Shown here piece after piece: positions 2,865 through 9,912 of a DNA stretch of 64,000 bases. The stretch's first letter is position 1. The number at the start of each line of letters is the position of its first letter. The notes beneath the pieces are model-generated. The model was not told the origin of the DNA. It made no database searches and saw only the letters and a list, made by a program, of their open reading frames with translations. Location: the NCBI RefSeq assembly GCF_034531395.1, contig NZ_JARVCO010000007.1, positions 186,001 through 250,000 of the forward strand, written 5' to 3'. The position numbers and the translations under genes were made by a program. Source of the stretch: Pontiella agarivorans. GTDB taxonomy: Bacteria > Verrucomicrobiota > Kiritimatiellia > Kiritimatiellales > Pontiellaceae.

Positions 2865-2958
2865 AATAAACCTCCATTGAATGGGCTGAGCATAATGGTC
2901 TTTTCAAAGATTGGAAAGCGGGTTTTACTGCCTTTGGAAAAGCGGTATATTTGCCGGC

Positions 2959-4455
2959 ATGCATAAAAATAAAACCCATATTGCGGTAAAAAACGGAACG
3001 CACCATGCGGCGGAAAAAATTGTGGCGGAGCTGTTAATGCGGGAGTTTGCACAGGATGATTCTGTGCTGGTGGCCATTGGGGGTCCGGGAGGTACGGGGA
3101 AGTCAACCTTTGCACGGGTATTGGCAGACGGGCTTCCAGATGCGGTTATACTGCGGCTGGATGACTATAAAACATCGCGGGTGCTGCGGGCGGAAAAGCA
3201 GGTTTTCGGCCCGCACCCGGAAGCGAATAAGCTGGATTTAATGCAGGAGCATTTTGCTGAGATTAAAGCCGGCCGGACGTTTCAGAAACCGGTATATGAT
3301 TCGCCTACAGGAGAAGCCCGGCAGACTGAGGCCTTCGTTCCGCGGCAGTTTAATCTACTGGATGGTGAGGTTTCGACCTATCCTGCATTTCGCGAGCAGG
3401 TTGACTTTTCAATTTTTATTGATTCCGATTGGAAGACGCAGCTGGCCACGCGGATTGACCGCGATATTGAAACGCGGGGGTATGATCGGGAGAAAGCAAT
3501 TGCCACATTTCTGCAGAGTAATCTGCGCGAATTTTCCGAATATGGTGCGGAAAGTAAAAAATGGGCAGACCTGCATCTTTATTGTGACGAGGACTATCAT
3601 CTGGAAATTGAGTCCGTGTCCGATACGGTTTTCTTACAGCATCATGATCTTTTTGATTCTGATTATGCAGAAGTGGGACTGAAGGGGCTGGTGGTGCCGG
3701 TGCTGACGCCGTTTTCCGAGAATTGGAAAATCGATGAACGTGCATTTATCCGGCACCTTGAATTTTTAGCGCAGCATGGGGTGCACCGGATTATGGTGAA
3801 TGGTACGACGGCGGAATTTTTCTCGCTGCTGCCGGAGGAGCGGAAACAGCTGCTGAAACTGGCGCGGCGGTATTTTCCGGGAATGATTATCCAGCATGCG
3901 GGAGGAACCGGGCTGGAGCAGAATAAAACCGAAGTCCGCTGGGCGAACGATTTCGGGGCGGATGCGGTAGCGGTTCTGCCGCCGATCTATCCGTCGGGAT
4001 TGCCGGAAGCCGGTATCATTCAGTATTTCCAGGCATTGGAAGCTGAGGCGGATGTTCCGTTTCTGCTTTATAATTTCCCGAAACATACGGGGAACGGAAT
4101 TACCCCGAAAATACTCCGTGAAGTGCCGCACTACGGGCTGAAGGATTCTGCGCGGAATTTTGAACTGATGGAACACACGCCGAACTATTTTGTGGGATCG
4201 AGTACGACTGTTTTCGAGCCGGTGCAGCAGGGTGCTGCAGGTTTTGTTTCGGCCACGGCCAACGTGCGGCCCGAACTCTATGCCGCCTTTGAAATGCTGC
4301 TGGTCGATGCAAAAGTAGAGGAAGCTGCGGTGATGCAGCAGGAGGTCAAGGCCTACTCGGCGCGCTTCAGTGCCGGTGGTATTCCAATGCTTAAGGAGAG
4401 CCTGGCGCGTAAACTGGACGGCTATCCGACGCGCGTACGCGCGCCGCTGATTTAG
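2959..4455 (+). CDS. Fusion of a uridine-kinase-like P-loop domain and a DapA/NAL-family aldolase
   Basis: A protein of about 498 residues with two enzyme domains. Residues about 1-225 hold a Walker A loop (GGPGGTGKST, about 41-50) and the layout of the uridine kinase/phosphoribulokinase family (RLDDYK after the first strand, later IFIDSDWKTQLATR). Residues about 240-498 are a class I aldolase of the dihydrodipicolinate synthase/N-acetylneuraminate lyase family: GTT near 282, Tyr in LLYNFP near 371 and a Schiff-base Lys in YGLKDSA near 395. Kinase plus aldolase suggests sequential steps on a sugar acid or keto acid, but the substrate is unknown. A TTG at 2911 would add 16 residues; I prefer the ATG at 2959. 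No frameshift joins the halves. Confidence 0.85.
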   Translation: MHKNKTHIAVKNGTHHAAEKIVAELLMREFAQDDSVLVAIGGPGGTGKSTFARVLADGLPDAVILRLDDYKTSRVLRAEKQVFGPHPEANKLDLMQEHFAEIKAGRTFQKPVYDSPTGEARQTEAFVPRQFNLLDGEVSTYPAFREQVDFSIFIDSDWKTQLATRIDRDIETRGYDREKAIATFLQSNLREFSEYGAESKKWADLHLYCDEDYHLEIESVSDTVFLQHHDLFDSDYAEVGLKGLVVPVLTPFSENWKIDERAFIRHLEFLAQHGVHRIMVNGTTAEFFSLLPEERKQLLKLARRYFPGMIIQHAGGTGLEQNKTEVRWANDFGADAVAVLPPIYPSGLPEAGIIQYFQALEAEADVPFLLYNFPKHTGNGITPKILREVPHYGLKDSARNFELMEHTPNYFVGSSTTVFEPVQQGAAGFVSATANVRPELYAAFEMLLVDAKVEEAAVMQQEVKAYSARFSAGGIPMLKESLARKLDGYPTRVRAPLI

Positions 4456-4465
4456 TGCCACCGCT

Positions 4466-5704
4466 CTAGAAGCTGTACCGAAGACTCAGGCCGAGATTGC
4501 TGTTGTCCTGCAACTGGCCGAAAAAGGTATAGTCGTGCTCGCCGAGAAATACGTTTGCGTAGGCCGAGGCCTGCCAGTGGTCGGAAATTGTATAGGTCGC
4601 ATTCGGACGGATGTAAGTGTCTTGATCGGATGGCGAATAGAAGGTAAAGAGGCTGAGCATTAGGTTCTGGTTCATGGCCATTTTGGTCAGGCGAAGGGTC
4701 AGCACATGGCGGAATTCATCGCGCGTGCCGGAATAGCCGCCATAATCCTGCATCCACTCAACATAGTACTGAAAGCCGGCGGTCAGTTCGTTGCCGATTT
4801 CCCGCTCGTAGCCGGAGAGGAAGCGGACTTCATCGTTGGGAACATTTTTAAAGGCACTGGAATTTTCGCGGGAGTCGTAATAGCCGATCTCCACGTTCAT
4901 GAGTGTGTTGCCGACAGCACCTCTGGCGCTGGCGCCGTAGACGTTCAGTCGCGGAAAATAATAGTCGTTTGCGCTGAGGTCATAGCCGACGGGGCTTTTC
5001 CAGAATCCGTGATAGGCATAAAGCGAACCCTCCCAGCTCAGTACCGGGCGGTAAAAACGTGCTGAAAATTCGTGGTCCTTAAACCATTCATTACGTTTCT
5101 CTGCGGTAAATTCATCGCCGGTGATATCCATGCCGTTCCAGTAGGAGAGGCGGGAGCCGTCGACATAGCGGTCGGGATCAAATTTCGGCATATAGGCAAA
5201 GTCGAAACTTCCAATGGCTGGAAACCAGCTGACAAAGAGGGCATCCGACGGGGCTTTCAGATAGTCCTCATCGCGCCCGAGCAGGAAGGAATTCCAGTCC
5301 TTGGGAAACAGGTCGTTGATGAAGAGCAGGTCGCCGGTGCCCCAGGTCAGAATCTGCCGGCCGATTTTGACGTCGGCGGAAGGGATCGGCGTAAACAGGA
5401 GATTGAGTTCCCGCAGGTCCATAAAGCCGGTGCCCCGGTCCAGGTCGATTTTGTGGAGGTCATCCTGCAGTCCGTCGTAGAGGAAATCGGTGCGGATCTG
5501 GAGTTCCGCCGCATCGAAATAGGTCAGCGCATCGAGCTGCAGCCGCGTTTCGCCGAGGCTCATCTGGTTCTGCGCCGGATCATCCTGCGTCCGGGCCCCG
5601 GCACGCGTCTCGGCAAAACCGTGCAGTTCGGTATCGAGCGCGAAGCTTGAAACCTGGACGGTGAAAGTTGAAATGAGAAAGAGAAGGATCTTTTTAATTT
5701 TCAT
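4466..5704 (-). CDS. Outer-membrane beta-barrel protein, partner of an RND exporter
   Basis: About 412 residues with a signal peptide (MKIKKILLFLISTFTVQVSS) and then many alternating aromatic/polar strands, ending in SLRYSF, a typical C-terminal Phe for BAM insertion. It resembles the DUF1302/alginate-export-like barrels found beside MMPL/RND transporters. I start at 5704 because an upstream ATG at 5764 would put an unlikely leader, lying in an inverted repeat, before a clean signal peptide. It is the last gene of the minus-strand set RND, LolA-like, barrel, and probably completes a path that moves a lipid or hydrophobic molecule to the outer membrane. Exact family uncertain. Confidence 0.75.
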   Translation of the reverse strand: MKIKKILLFLISTFTVQVSSFALDTELHGFAETRAGARTQDDPAQNQMSLGETRLQLDALTYFDAAELQIRTDFLYDGLQDDLHKIDLDRGTGFMDLRELNLLFTPIPSADVKIGRQILTWGTGDLLFINDLFPKDWNSFLLGRDEDYLKAPSDALFVSWFPAIGSFDFAYMPKFDPDRYVDGSRLSYWNGMDITGDEFTAEKRNEWFKDHEFSARFYRPVLSWEGSLYAYHGFWKSPVGYDLSANDYYFPRLNVYGASARGAVGNTLMNVEIGYYDSRENSSAFKNVPNDEVRFLSGYEREIGNELTAGFQYYVEWMQDYGGYSGTRDEFRHVLTLRLTKMAMNQNLMLSLFTFYSPSDQDTYIRPNATYTISDHWQASAYANVFLGEHDYTFFGQLQDNSNLGLSLRYSF

Positions 5705-5716
5705 GCTGCTTCCAAT

Positions 5717-5788
5717 GTAGACGAAGCTTCCCGCTTCGTTGGGTGTGCCTGGCTTTGCGTGCATGACGAAGCTGGAAGCTTCGTCTAC
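5717..5788. repeat. REP-like inverted repeat
   Basis: Two 23-base arms (5717-5739 and 5766-5788) are reverse complements with one mismatch, around a 26-base loop. The arm reads GTAGACGAAGCTTCC followed by (C/A)GCTTCGT. It fills the gap between two genes of one operon and lacks a T run, so it looks more like a repetitive extragenic palindrome or mRNA-stability hairpin than a terminator. Confidence 0.7.
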
Positions 5789-5792
5789 GACG

Positions 5793-6575
5793 TTAGCGCG
5801 TTACTTCCCTCGGCGGTCTTCTCAGGAAGCGTTCGGTGAAGATGTTTTCCTTCAGGCCGATGTCATAGTTGATGTCGGAGAAGGTGTTGACCGTTTTGCC
5901 GCCCGTATTCAGATCGGAGACGACGGATTCGATGACGGTCGGATAGCCCTGGATCGTTTCCACTTTCGTGGCCTCGACGGTGCGGTAGAGCTTGCCGGTT
6001 TTATCGTAATATTCCGCGTGCCGCGGCAGGAAAGTATCCTTGTCGATCTTCATGGTGTAGTAGGAAAACTCCACGCTGTCCGGATCCTTCGGCACGTTCT
6101 TGATGATATACTGCGTATCAGTGGTTTCGATCAGTTCATGGGTATCTTCGCTCAGGTTGCGGCCGGAAACATCTTCATAGACAAAGTCGGAGCCGACAAA
6201 CGACGTGCGTTTATCGCCCGGCGCAATTTCGCGTTTCAGATTGAGGGCGGGGAGCCACATCCAACGCGAATCATTTTTACCTTCGCCGGTTTCCTTCCAG
6301 ACGAGGAAGACCTGCTTATAGAGATCGGCCGGTTGTTTGAAGTAGACATAAAACTTCTGGTTGCCGTCCTTCACATTCATGCGCAGCAGGGTGAATTCGC
6401 GGGTGCGGGTGGAGCCGGACTTGTCGATGATCTTCATCTCAACATCGGCCTTGCCGTCGTTCCCGGCATAGTAGGACGCTTCGTTGGCTTTGTTGACGAT
6501 ATCGTTCACGCTCATTTCAGCATAGGCACCGAGGGCCAGTGTAACTGCGGTAATTGCTGTAATTAACTTTTTCAT
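5793..6575 (-). CDS. LolA-like outer-membrane lipoprotein-sorting protein
   Basis: About 260 residues with a signal peptide (MKKLITAITAVTLALGAYA) followed by a LolA/LolB-type beta sheet domain: DVEMKIIDKSGSTRTREF, KFYVYFKQPADLYKQVFLVW, RWMWLPALNLKREI and DFVYEDVSGR. COG2834-type proteins of this kind often sit beside RND/MMPL exporters and are thought to carry a lipid or lipoprotein through the periplasm. The ATG at 6575 has GGAG eight bases upstream; the longer frame from 6620 lacks a signal peptide at its start. It lies between the RND gene and the barrel gene in one operon. Confidence 0.85.
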   Translation of the reverse strand: MKKLITAITAVTLALGAYAEMSVNDIVNKANEASYYAGNDGKADVEMKIIDKSGSTRTREFTLLRMNVKDGNQKFYVYFKQPADLYKQVFLVWKETGEGKNDSRWMWLPALNLKREIAPGDKRTSFVGSDFVYEDVSGRNLSEDTHELIETTDTQYIIKNVPKDPDSVEFSYYTMKIDKDTFLPRHAEYYDKTGKLYRTVEATKVETIQGYPTVIESVVSDLNTGGKTVNTFSDINYDIGLKENIFTERFLRRPPREVTR

Positions 6576-6645
6576 TTTTATTCTCCGATTTACGAACCAC
6601 TGATTTCTACTCATCGACACTTATCAGATTCACTATTCGTGAAGA

Positions 6646-9594
6646 TCAGTACGAATCAGTGGTTTCCTTATTCTTAAATAACCATTTCTGCAGGCCGGAG
6701 ATTAAAGCGGCCAGAATAAAGAGGGTGGCGAGCCAGGAAACGGCCATGATGGTGGCGAGAAAGAACCCGACCGTTTTGTAGGGCACCAGCGGTGCAAACA
6801 GCAGCGGCGTAAAGCCGATCGAAATTATGATGGCGTTGCGGCTGATGGCCATGGCCGGTTCCTCGAACATCTGGCCGACCGCGTCTTTCCAGTTGCCGGC
6901 TTTTCCGGTCAGCTCGCGCGAGCGCTGCAGAAAGTGGATGGCAAAGTCGACGCTGAGGCCGAGGGTCAGCGAAGAGAGCACCGCCACCGGCATGTCGTAA
7001 TCCTTGCCGACCCAGCCGATCAGCCCGTAGATGAAGGTGATGGTTACGGTCAGCGGCAGCATGGCCAGCAGCCCGAAGAGCGGCGAGCGGAACAGCACCA
7101 TCATCATGATGAGGACCACCACGAAGGAGCTGAGCAGCGCATTCATCATGCCGGCCACCATCTTGTCCTGCCATACGACGTTGAGATAGGTGAGTCCCGC
7201 CCAGCCGGTTTCGAGTTGAACCGGTGCGGGATTTTCGGACATCCAGTTTTCGATGTCGTCCACGACGGCGACCATGTCGGTATTGTCGCCGCTCTTGAGC
7301 TGAATCCAGATATTCACCTCGTTGTAATCCTTGGTGACCAGATGAAACAGACTGTCCTTTTTCTTCATGCCCTCGAGCTGGATGAAGACCTGCGCGGCGG
7401 CGGAGGGATTCGGCGGGATGGAATTAAACTGTTGGTTCTGCTCAGCGGAGGCCTCGGCCATGTAGTTCAGTTCATAGTTCGCCTTCTTGAGCGAGTCTAC
7501 CGCCGAACTTGATTTTCCAATGCCTGGAACCGTTTTCATATAATCCTGCAGGTGCTCGACATAGGCCAGGATTTCCGGGCGCTTAAAAGCCGGGGCATTG
7601 GCTGTGGCGCGCGCTTCGTAAAGGAAGTCGGTGAAGGAGAGTTCCAGAAAACGGTCGCAGAAATTCAGTGCGGCATTCTGCAGTTCAGCTCCAGCCAGCT
7701 CACCCTGATCCGACAGATACTGGATGAGGTGATTTACAGATGCTTTGTCGCCGGCCTTACGGATGGCTTCAACCAGTTTTTCTTTTGTGAGGCCTTCGGG
7801 ATCGAGATAAATAATTTCGTCGGCGAGGTCGTTCCAGACTCCGGATGTTTTCCGGTCCAGCGCTTCGGCTTTTTGAACGAGGTCAACAAAGCAGCGTTCC
7901 TCATCCTGTTTAAATTCCGCGGTGGACAGGATGGATTCAAATTCGGCATAGGCTTTCGGCAGCGCCTCGGCAAAACGGGCTTCGGCATCGGCTTTCATTG
8001 TTTCAATCCGTTCATCGCACGTTGCGGCCAGCACCTGCGCCGGTTTGAGCGTGAGGTAGGCGGTGTATGTGCCGCCGAAGTGGTCGTTCATCACGCGGTC
8101 GGCCACGCGGATCCGGTGGTTCCGGGTGAACCATTTGACCGGGTTGTCGTTCACAGTGATTCTGGATATGCCGATGACGGAAACCACGAGCAGAAGCAAG
8201 GTTGCGGACAGAATCAGCTTCCAGCGCAGGAAGGAAAACCGGCCCAGTCCGTGGAGGGTGCGGTTAAGCCGCGAGGGCGAAACATCGCAGCTGTCCTGGT
8301 CCTGTACGTGGCACACCGCTTCCAGGGATTTCGATCGTACAAACAGCATAATGTAGGCGGGAACAAAAGTCATGGTCAGCAGCCAGGCGAGGGCCACACC
8401 GAACGCGACGTGCAGGCCGAACACCTGTACCGGCGGGATCGGGGTGGTGCCCAGCGAGGCAAACCCGGCGATGGTGGTCAGCGAGGTGTACAGCATCGGC
8501 ATGAAGAGATGCCCGATGACGTGGCGGATCGTGTCCGCCTTGTTGTGGAACTTATGATAGGTGTCGAAAAATTCGCTGAGAATGTGCACGGAATCGGCCA
8601 CGGCGATCGGCATCAGAAAGATGGCAATCATGGAGCTCATGATGTGCACGTCGTAGCCCAGCCCGATCAGCAGGCCCATGGTGGCCACAACGCTCACGAC
8701 GGCGACGATCATCGGCGCAATAATCAGGGAAATGCGGCGGAAGAAGAAAAGCAGCAGCAGGAAAATCGCCAGGCCGGCCATCGGGGCGGAGGTGGCCATC
8801 TGCACCAGCATTTCCACGCCGAAGGTATCCTGCGCCACGGGCTGGCCGGTAATGTAGACCTGGTCGGCGTTGTCCCAGCCGGCCGTCAGTTTTTCAATCA
8901 GGTTGGCGACGTTGTAGGAATAGGTCTTTTCCTGAATCGGAATATAGAGGGCAATCGCTTTGCCGTCGGCGGAAACCAGCGTGTCTTTATAGAGCGGGTT
9001 GTTCATCGCGTCGCGTTTGATGGAGAGCGCTTCCGCGCGGGTGGTCGGCGGCACTTCCATCAGGTATTCGATGGCCAGCTGACCGCGGTCGGCCTGCTTG
9101 ATGTTATCCACCACACTCGGACTGATGATTTCCGGCGCAATGATGGCCGAGGAGCCGTCCTCGGTGAAGAGGCGGTTGACATCGTTCCCGAATACGCCCG
9201 CCAGCCCGCGCTCCCAGGCACTGTCCGATTCAAGCGCCGGGGCATAGGGCTCGCCGTTGCGGATCACTTCCGGCTGGCCGTCGGCATTCCGGTGCAGGCT
9301 GATCAGTTCGCGGGTGAGGGCATCAATTCTGCCCAGCGTCTCCACATTAAAAATGCCGTCCTCATGCTCCTCGTTCACGATGCCGACGATGACGAAATCG
9401 TAGAGGTTGTAGCGTGCTTTGACCTCGTTGTGGAACACGCGGATGTGTTCATCCTCCGCCAGCATGTTTTCCGGATCGTTGTCAAAGCTCACCTTCGGGA
9501 ACTGCGCCCCGAAAAAGAGGGTGACGGCCGTGACGACCAGCAGGATGATCCAGGGAAAGCGGATGCTGAGCGATGTCATTTTCAAGCGTTTCAT
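6646..9594 (-). CDS. RND/MMPL superfamily exporter
   Basis: About 982 residues with the duplicated RND plan: TM1 near residue 12, a large periplasmic domain, a five-helix bundle (MAGLAIFLLLLFFFRRI through MTFVPAYIMLFV), then TM7, a second periplasmic domain and a second bundle (ALLSSFVVVLIMMMVLF through ATLFILAALISG). The short-loop MMPL/COG1033 form suits export of lipids or hopanoid-like molecules rather than drugs. Start at 9594 is chosen for the GAGAGG ribosome site; the frame is open to 9645. Stop and next start are 70 bases apart. It is the first gene of the operon with 5793 and 4466. Confidence 0.9.
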   Translation of the reverse strand: MKRLKMTSLSIRFPWIILLVVTAVTLFFGAQFPKVSFDNDPENMLAEDEHIRVFHNEVKARYNLYDFVIVGIVNEEHEDGIFNVETLGRIDALTRELISLHRNADGQPEVIRNGEPYAPALESDSAWERGLAGVFGNDVNRLFTEDGSSAIIAPEIISPSVVDNIKQADRGQLAIEYLMEVPPTTRAEALSIKRDAMNNPLYKDTLVSADGKAIALYIPIQEKTYSYNVANLIEKLTAGWDNADQVYITGQPVAQDTFGVEMLVQMATSAPMAGLAIFLLLLFFFRRISLIIAPMIVAVVSVVATMGLLIGLGYDVHIMSSMIAIFLMPIAVADSVHILSEFFDTYHKFHNKADTIRHVIGHLFMPMLYTSLTTIAGFASLGTTPIPPVQVFGLHVAFGVALAWLLTMTFVPAYIMLFVRSKSLEAVCHVQDQDSCDVSPSRLNRTLHGLGRFSFLRWKLILSATLLLLVVSVIGISRITVNDNPVKWFTRNHRIRVADRVMNDHFGGTYTAYLTLKPAQVLAATCDERIETMKADAEARFAEALPKAYAEFESILSTAEFKQDEERCFVDLVQKAEALDRKTSGVWNDLADEIIYLDPEGLTKEKLVEAIRKAGDKASVNHLIQYLSDQGELAGAELQNAALNFCDRFLELSFTDFLYEARATANAPAFKRPEILAYVEHLQDYMKTVPGIGKSSSAVDSLKKANYELNYMAEASAEQNQQFNSIPPNPSAAAQVFIQLEGMKKKDSLFHLVTKDYNEVNIWIQLKSGDNTDMVAVVDDIENWMSENPAPVQLETGWAGLTYLNVVWQDKMVAGMMNALLSSFVVVLIMMMVLFRSPLFGLLAMLPLTVTITFIYGLIGWVGKDYDMPVAVLSSLTLGLSVDFAIHFLQRSRELTGKAGNWKDAVGQMFEEPAMAISRNAIIISIGFTPLLFAPLVPYKTVGFFLATIMAVSWLATLFILAALISGLQKWLFKNKETTDSY

Positions 9595-9912
9595 TTCTAA
9601 CCTCTCGATGCAGTCTTTTATAAACCCGTATAAATTAACCCGCAATTAAAGTCTATTTATTTCGGCTCCCCGGCGGTCGGGGAGCACGGGAATAAACATA
9701 TTCAGATATTTTAATGAGTCAATGTATAATAATATTAAAATTTCATTATATATGGATTGAATGGGGCTTGGGAAAGGGACGGTTCTCGGCCGGAGGTTGT
9801 GATCTCACCCGGCCGCAGCGATGAGGAAGAATTTTCAACCCGGTACGCCTCCTGCGGATTTCTGCTGAGAGGAAAGGCCCTGGAAAGCGTAAAAAAGAGA
9901 GAAGCGAAAAAT
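9595..9912. other. Intergenic stretch upstream of the RND operon
   Basis: No gene is convincing here. It holds a perfect 8 bp hairpin with a five-base loop at 9665-9685 (GCTCCCCG/CGGGGAGC), 70 bases before the RND start, then an AT-rich block at about 9710-9755 suited to a promoter for the minus-strand operon. The remainder to 9912 shows no motif that I recognise. Confidence 0.5.

Follow-up and report, generated by a model that had tools for sequence, protein, structure and literature searches.

The usual KDG kinase is a PfkB-type protein, and the usual KDPG aldolase is of the Eda type. DHDPS, for its part, binds an acidic aldehyde through the Arg of its YNVPSRTG motif. The gene considered here joins old, well-known enzyme types in one chain, a putative P-loop kinase and a putative Schiff-base pyruvate aldolase. 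It lies in a 64,000-nt stretch of the Pontiella agarivorans genome (12 contigs, 4,436,865 bases), called the window below. No report of such a kinase-aldolase fusion, or of its kinase, was found in the accessible portion of the open-licence literature, and term searches of the available text of PMC10880615, PMC7356697, and PMC6388578 turned up no passage on the gene. The features of the locus are:

2901..2940, + strand: degenerate TTTCCAA-N3-TTGGAAA palindrome, two copies in tandem, immediately before the start codon, in a leader that fused and aldolase-only relatives share

2959..4455, + strand: kinase-aldolase fusion gene, 498 aa (single frame; full-length relatives)

3055..3612, + strand: kinase domain, ~aa 33-218, PRK/uridine-kinase superfamily, PF00485 (Pfam, NCBIfam, and PDB matches, alignment)

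Within 3055..3612, + strand: kinase motifs, namely the P loop (aa 41-50), LDDYKTSR (aa 67-74), and RIDRD (aa 165-169)

3613..3678, + strand: interdomain linker of ~22 residues, aa 219-240 (domain limits and alignment)

3679..4452, + strand: aldolase domain, aa 241-498, DHDPS/NAL superfamily, PF00701 (Pfam, NCBIfam, and PDB matches, alignment)

Within 3679..4452, + strand: aldolase motifs, namely NGTT (aa 281-284), Y371, K375-H376, and K395

The gene runs for 498 codons from an ATG at 2959 to a stop ending at 4455, with no internal stop, and matches both PF00485 and PF00701; the unbroken kinase-aldolase join and intact P loop (GGPGGTGKST) of the preliminary description are thus borne out. Both halves are under purifying selection (window vs. 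G380, dN/dS ~0.13 in the kinase part and ~0.12 in the aldolase part). By sequence, the catalytic signatures of each half are complete, and each half is conserved. An AlphaFold model (one job, two sequences) had a mean pLDDT of 43.6 and was unusable.

The kinase half falls within PF00485 (PRK; aa 38-205, E 7.8e-18, 65.4 bits against a cut-off of 22), and its Walker A P loop is kept across the kinase clade wherever this could be aligned. It had been called uridine-kinase-like, which needs one correction: in NCBIfam it scores 69 bits with TIGR00235 (cut-off 220.3) and 70.4 bits with NF004018 (cut-off 180), the two uridine kinase models, and comes nearer to phosphoribulokinase (NF005655), with 107.6 bits, itself well below a cut-off of 236. 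The best PDB matches, 6kev and 6hzk, are likewise phosphoribulokinase. By sequence, the N-terminal half is a P-loop kinase of a separate clade within the PRK/uridine-kinase superfamily.

The aldolase half falls within PF00701 (DHDPS; aa 241-482, E 2.3e-30, 105.8 bits against a cut-off of 22.1), and has the catalytic Tyr (Y371, in YNFP) and Schiff-base Lys (K395, in KDS) expected of the DapA/NAL-type aldolase that had been proposed. The Tyr, the Lys, and NGTT are invariant in all 33 aligned members of the aldolase clade, a count from which six more distant rows were set aside. The same 33 rows share a mark of their own, K/R375-H376 following YNFP (YNFA in one row), and the G803 protein also has Tyr, Lys, NGTT, and the K/R-His pair. 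This pair lies at the position of the aldehyde-binding Arg of DHDPS, with the His at the Arg position itself; by analogy, an anionic acceptor would be plausible.

Among curated models, archaeal KD(P)G aldolase (NF040954, NCBIfam) comes closest, with 122 bits where the cut-off is 390; five other clade members score 95.6-121.2 bits with it, also below the cut-off. DapA (TIGR00674) follows at 98.1 bits (cut-off 206.15), and the N-acetylneuraminate lyase models at 66.8 and 56.7 bits (cut-offs 281 and 382, respectively; NCBIfam). The eight relatives scored on NCBIfam gave the same family ranking as the window protein, except that the G203 aldolase is slightly nearer DapA (113 bits) than KD(P)G aldolase (109.4 bits). 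The closest solved structure is the Sulfolobus KDG aldolase 1w37; for both halves, the PDB matches rank the families as NCBIfam does. By sequence, the C-terminal half is a class I (Schiff-base) pyruvate aldolase of a separate clade within the DHDPS/NAL superfamily. Since neither domain comes near any of the NCBIfam cut-offs for named enzymes, each half is a member of its superfamily but of no named enzyme family.

Elsewhere in the genome are another PF00701 gene (on C10, 309.5 bits), presumably the real DapA, and two ordinary PF01081 (KDPG/KHG-type) aldolase genes. The fusion gene is thus not its sole candidate for aldol cleavage of a sugar acid, and these other genes probably take care of the ordinary KDPG and lysine routes.

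The gene does stand alone, as first described. Upstream on the same strand are gltB and gltD (named by eye); a 92-aa ORF without a Pfam match (2586-2864, - strand) is divergent from it, and a DUF1302 barrel gene is convergent. This barrel gene, a LolA-like gene, and an MMPL transporter gene occupy one strand (4466-9645, - strand) and are found together in several relatives, and the 92-aa ORF is kept beside the fusion or aldolase-only gene in many Pontiella-type genomes. As far as contigs permit, the fused and the aldolase-only genes of Pontiella-type genomes have the same surroundings (gltB, gltD, the 92-aa ORF, DUF1302, LolA-like, and MMPL), and often a common leader up to the start codon; on the 9.6-kb contig of G392, none of these shared neighbors is present. 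Neighbors at the compared loci were named by eye from their first residues, except for proteins run through Pfam. No sugar pathway neighbor was seen at the Pontiella-type loci, in G203, G653, or G803, in the next family of the order (f2), or at the kinase-only loci, and so the context gives no pathway and, as had been noted, no substrate.

The palindrome that precedes the start, TTTCCAA-N3-TTGGAAA, is hugely over-represented in the genome, with 1303 sites at up to two mismatches vs. 16 for a reversed control, and its 19-base form has 17 matches in the window vs. 0.26 expected. Many sites are inside crude ORF calls, and a few are just upstream of starts. Term searches of the available text of PMC7356697 and PMC6388578 found no mention of it.

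The search for the same architecture across genomes, suggested at the outset, found full-length fusions in eight genomes (including this one) from four families: five Pontiella-type, G203, G653, and G803. The fused relatives are 52-87% identical. Within the order, 30 of the 43 genomes searched have a relative, fused in 5 of the 30 and aldolase-only in the other 25. Within the class, 7 of 345 genomes have the fusion (the five Pontiella-type plus G203 and G653). The class of G119 has one in 384 (G803, 53%), its other four matches being kinase-only cousins, and the class of G150 has none with an intact aldolase in 197. A sample of 387 from the phylum yielded numerous ordinary DHDPS and kinase matches, ranking below the clade relatives. 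A single-sequence contig scan reaching beyond the phylum found one locus, in a Pontiella MAG, counted as one with C345 of G389 because the two contigs are equally long (4291 bases), and none of 72,556 plasmid records covers 80% of the fusion query.

These counts bear directly on one alternative, that a lost stop codon or an assembly error has joined two neighboring genes in the window sequence only. Aldolase-only relatives at the same locus are what might be expected in that case, but fusions are present in seven further assemblies and no locus read has the two as adjacent separate genes, leaving an artifact with next to no chance. One of the seven, in G047, is split at contig ends (between C146 and C100). 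The recurrence of the fusion excludes the case that was to have overturned it, namely separate genes in relatives with the stop codon missing from this sequence alone.

The two halves are also found apart. Of the 25 genomes in the order that have the aldolase alone, 13 are of the Pontiella family (the G245 gene is frameshifted) and 12 of f2; at E <= 1e-25, none of the 25 has a separate close kinase. Elsewhere in the class, one genome (G662) is aldolase-only and two (G635 and G189) have a kinase-only gene of the kinase clade. Kinase-only cousins outside this clade adjoin LemA-like or dusB-like genes, and two in another class (L053 in G210 and L083 in G131) adjoin LemA-like genes, all named by eye. 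No genome examined has kinase and aldolase as separate genes, some first-look candidates from the class having been only partly scored, and a shared pathway therefore gains no support of this kind.

One reading of this pattern is that the two are independent enzymes, joined in a single chain just for the sake of expression or stability and working in different pathways. It would account for either half being missing or dead in relatives, for the absence of co-occurrence as separate genes among the genomes examined, and for out-of-clade kinase-only cousins standing beside LemA-like or dusB-like rather than sugar genes. On the other hand, four families have retained the fusion with both of its active sites intact, which is hard to put down to chance co-expression, and we regard this reading as somewhat unlikely.

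In three genomes (G150, G269, and G439) the kinase, 43-57% identical to that of the window, is joined to an aldolase truncated after about five beta-alpha units and lacking NGTT, the Tyr, and the Lys; the G269 frame is broken. The other two are:

L082 3932-5131 (G439) and L043 8866-10044 (G150): kinase plus truncated, catalytically dead aldolase half-barrel

Profile comparison (126 columns, 99.1% probability) and BLAST (reaching 1e-15) against the aldolase clade show these decayed aldolases to be true relatives of it. A fourth match in the class of G150, in G299, is a distant aldolase. The cut barrels, with active site lost and kinase kept, raise another possibility, that the barrel is a structural or ligand-sensing module for the kinase, with any catalysis of its own secondary. 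Against this, the Pontiella-type and f2 genomes with aldolase alone keep its active site intact, which implies a function of its own there, and we regard this possibility as quite unlikely.

Fused and aldolase-only Pontiella are interleaved in the RpoB tree, requiring at least four changes, with fused G389 paired with aldolase-only G388 (support 96/88). In the aldolase tree, which is flagged for long branches, grouping of the five fused Pontiella-type rows in a single clade is rejected (AU p 0.0136). A kinase clade containing the fused and half-dead genes and the two kinase-only ones has 100/100 support. Because fusions or remnants of them occur in three classes, it seems likelier that the kinase half was lost several times than that it was precisely gained several times, and the dead-aldolase forms in another class likewise favor an old fusion followed by such losses; this is a preference as to direction, which the trees do not prove. 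A start like MNEELKGL recurs in several aldolase-only genes, so that an aldolase-only allele may also be old.

The reading we tentatively prefer, which we would put a little short of an even chance, is that of an old bifunctional enzyme, probably with a 2-keto-3-deoxy sugar acid as the substrate of its kinase and pyruvate aldolase, in which coupling of the two is facultative. The aldolase would make or split a 2-keto-3-deoxy sugar acid (to pyruvate plus an aldehyde) through a Schiff base at K395, and the kinase would use an NTP to phosphorylate the sugar acid or its aldehyde partner. In the most economical joint reaction, the sugar acid would be phosphorylated and split into pyruvate and a phosphorylated aldehyde, or these steps would run backward; the class of substrate and the order of the reactions are inferred. 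Phosphorylation and aldol cleavage of a sugar acid, the chemistry suggested when the gene was first described, would still make the most sense. That interpretation holds insofar as the fusion is real and recurrent, while an obligatory coupling is weakened by the aldolase-only, kinase-only, and dead-aldolase relatives. Because several lineages have kept one half only, coupling would seem to be useful but dispensable.

A more ambitious version of this proposal has the gene encoding an undescribed bifunctional enzyme that opens a new route linking pyruvate with a phosphorylated 2-keto-3-deoxy sugar acid, with the aldolase in one class reduced to a dead half-barrel, now just a module of the kinase, and every stage between the coupled enzyme and the pseudo-enzyme surviving side by side. 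We consider it distinctly unlikely in this full form. The intact, halved, and half-dead relatives allow assays to ask directly whether fusion of two domains means a shared pathway.

Compared with described enzymes, the kinase half is most like phosphoribulokinase, with the P loop, LDDY, PAN/PEAN, KP.Y...TG, and R..RD aligning in the same order. However, the alignment is limited to the first ~182 of the 343 residues of 6kev, the DDYH of phosphoribulokinase is DDYK in the window kinase, and the latter has a clade motif of its own (SNLREF..GAESKKWAD). With uridine kinase it has in common the superfamily and a kinase core of similar length, but falls far short of the TIGR00235 and NF004018 cut-offs. 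The aldolase half shares a DHDPS-type barrel, NGTT, the Tyr of YN-P, and the Schiff-base Lys with the archaeal KDG/KD(P)G aldolases. It differs in being fused to a kinase, in having IYPSGL in place of the YYYPRMS loop of 1w37, and in having K375-H376 in place of the T-A after YN-P. DapA (TIGR00674) has the barrel, Tyr, and Lys in common with it, but the Arg of YNVPSRTG is replaced by His376. If the proposed sequential chemistry is correct, the two halves would form a kinase/aldolase pair with no relationship to the usual one of PfkB-type KDG kinase and Eda-type KDPG aldolase.
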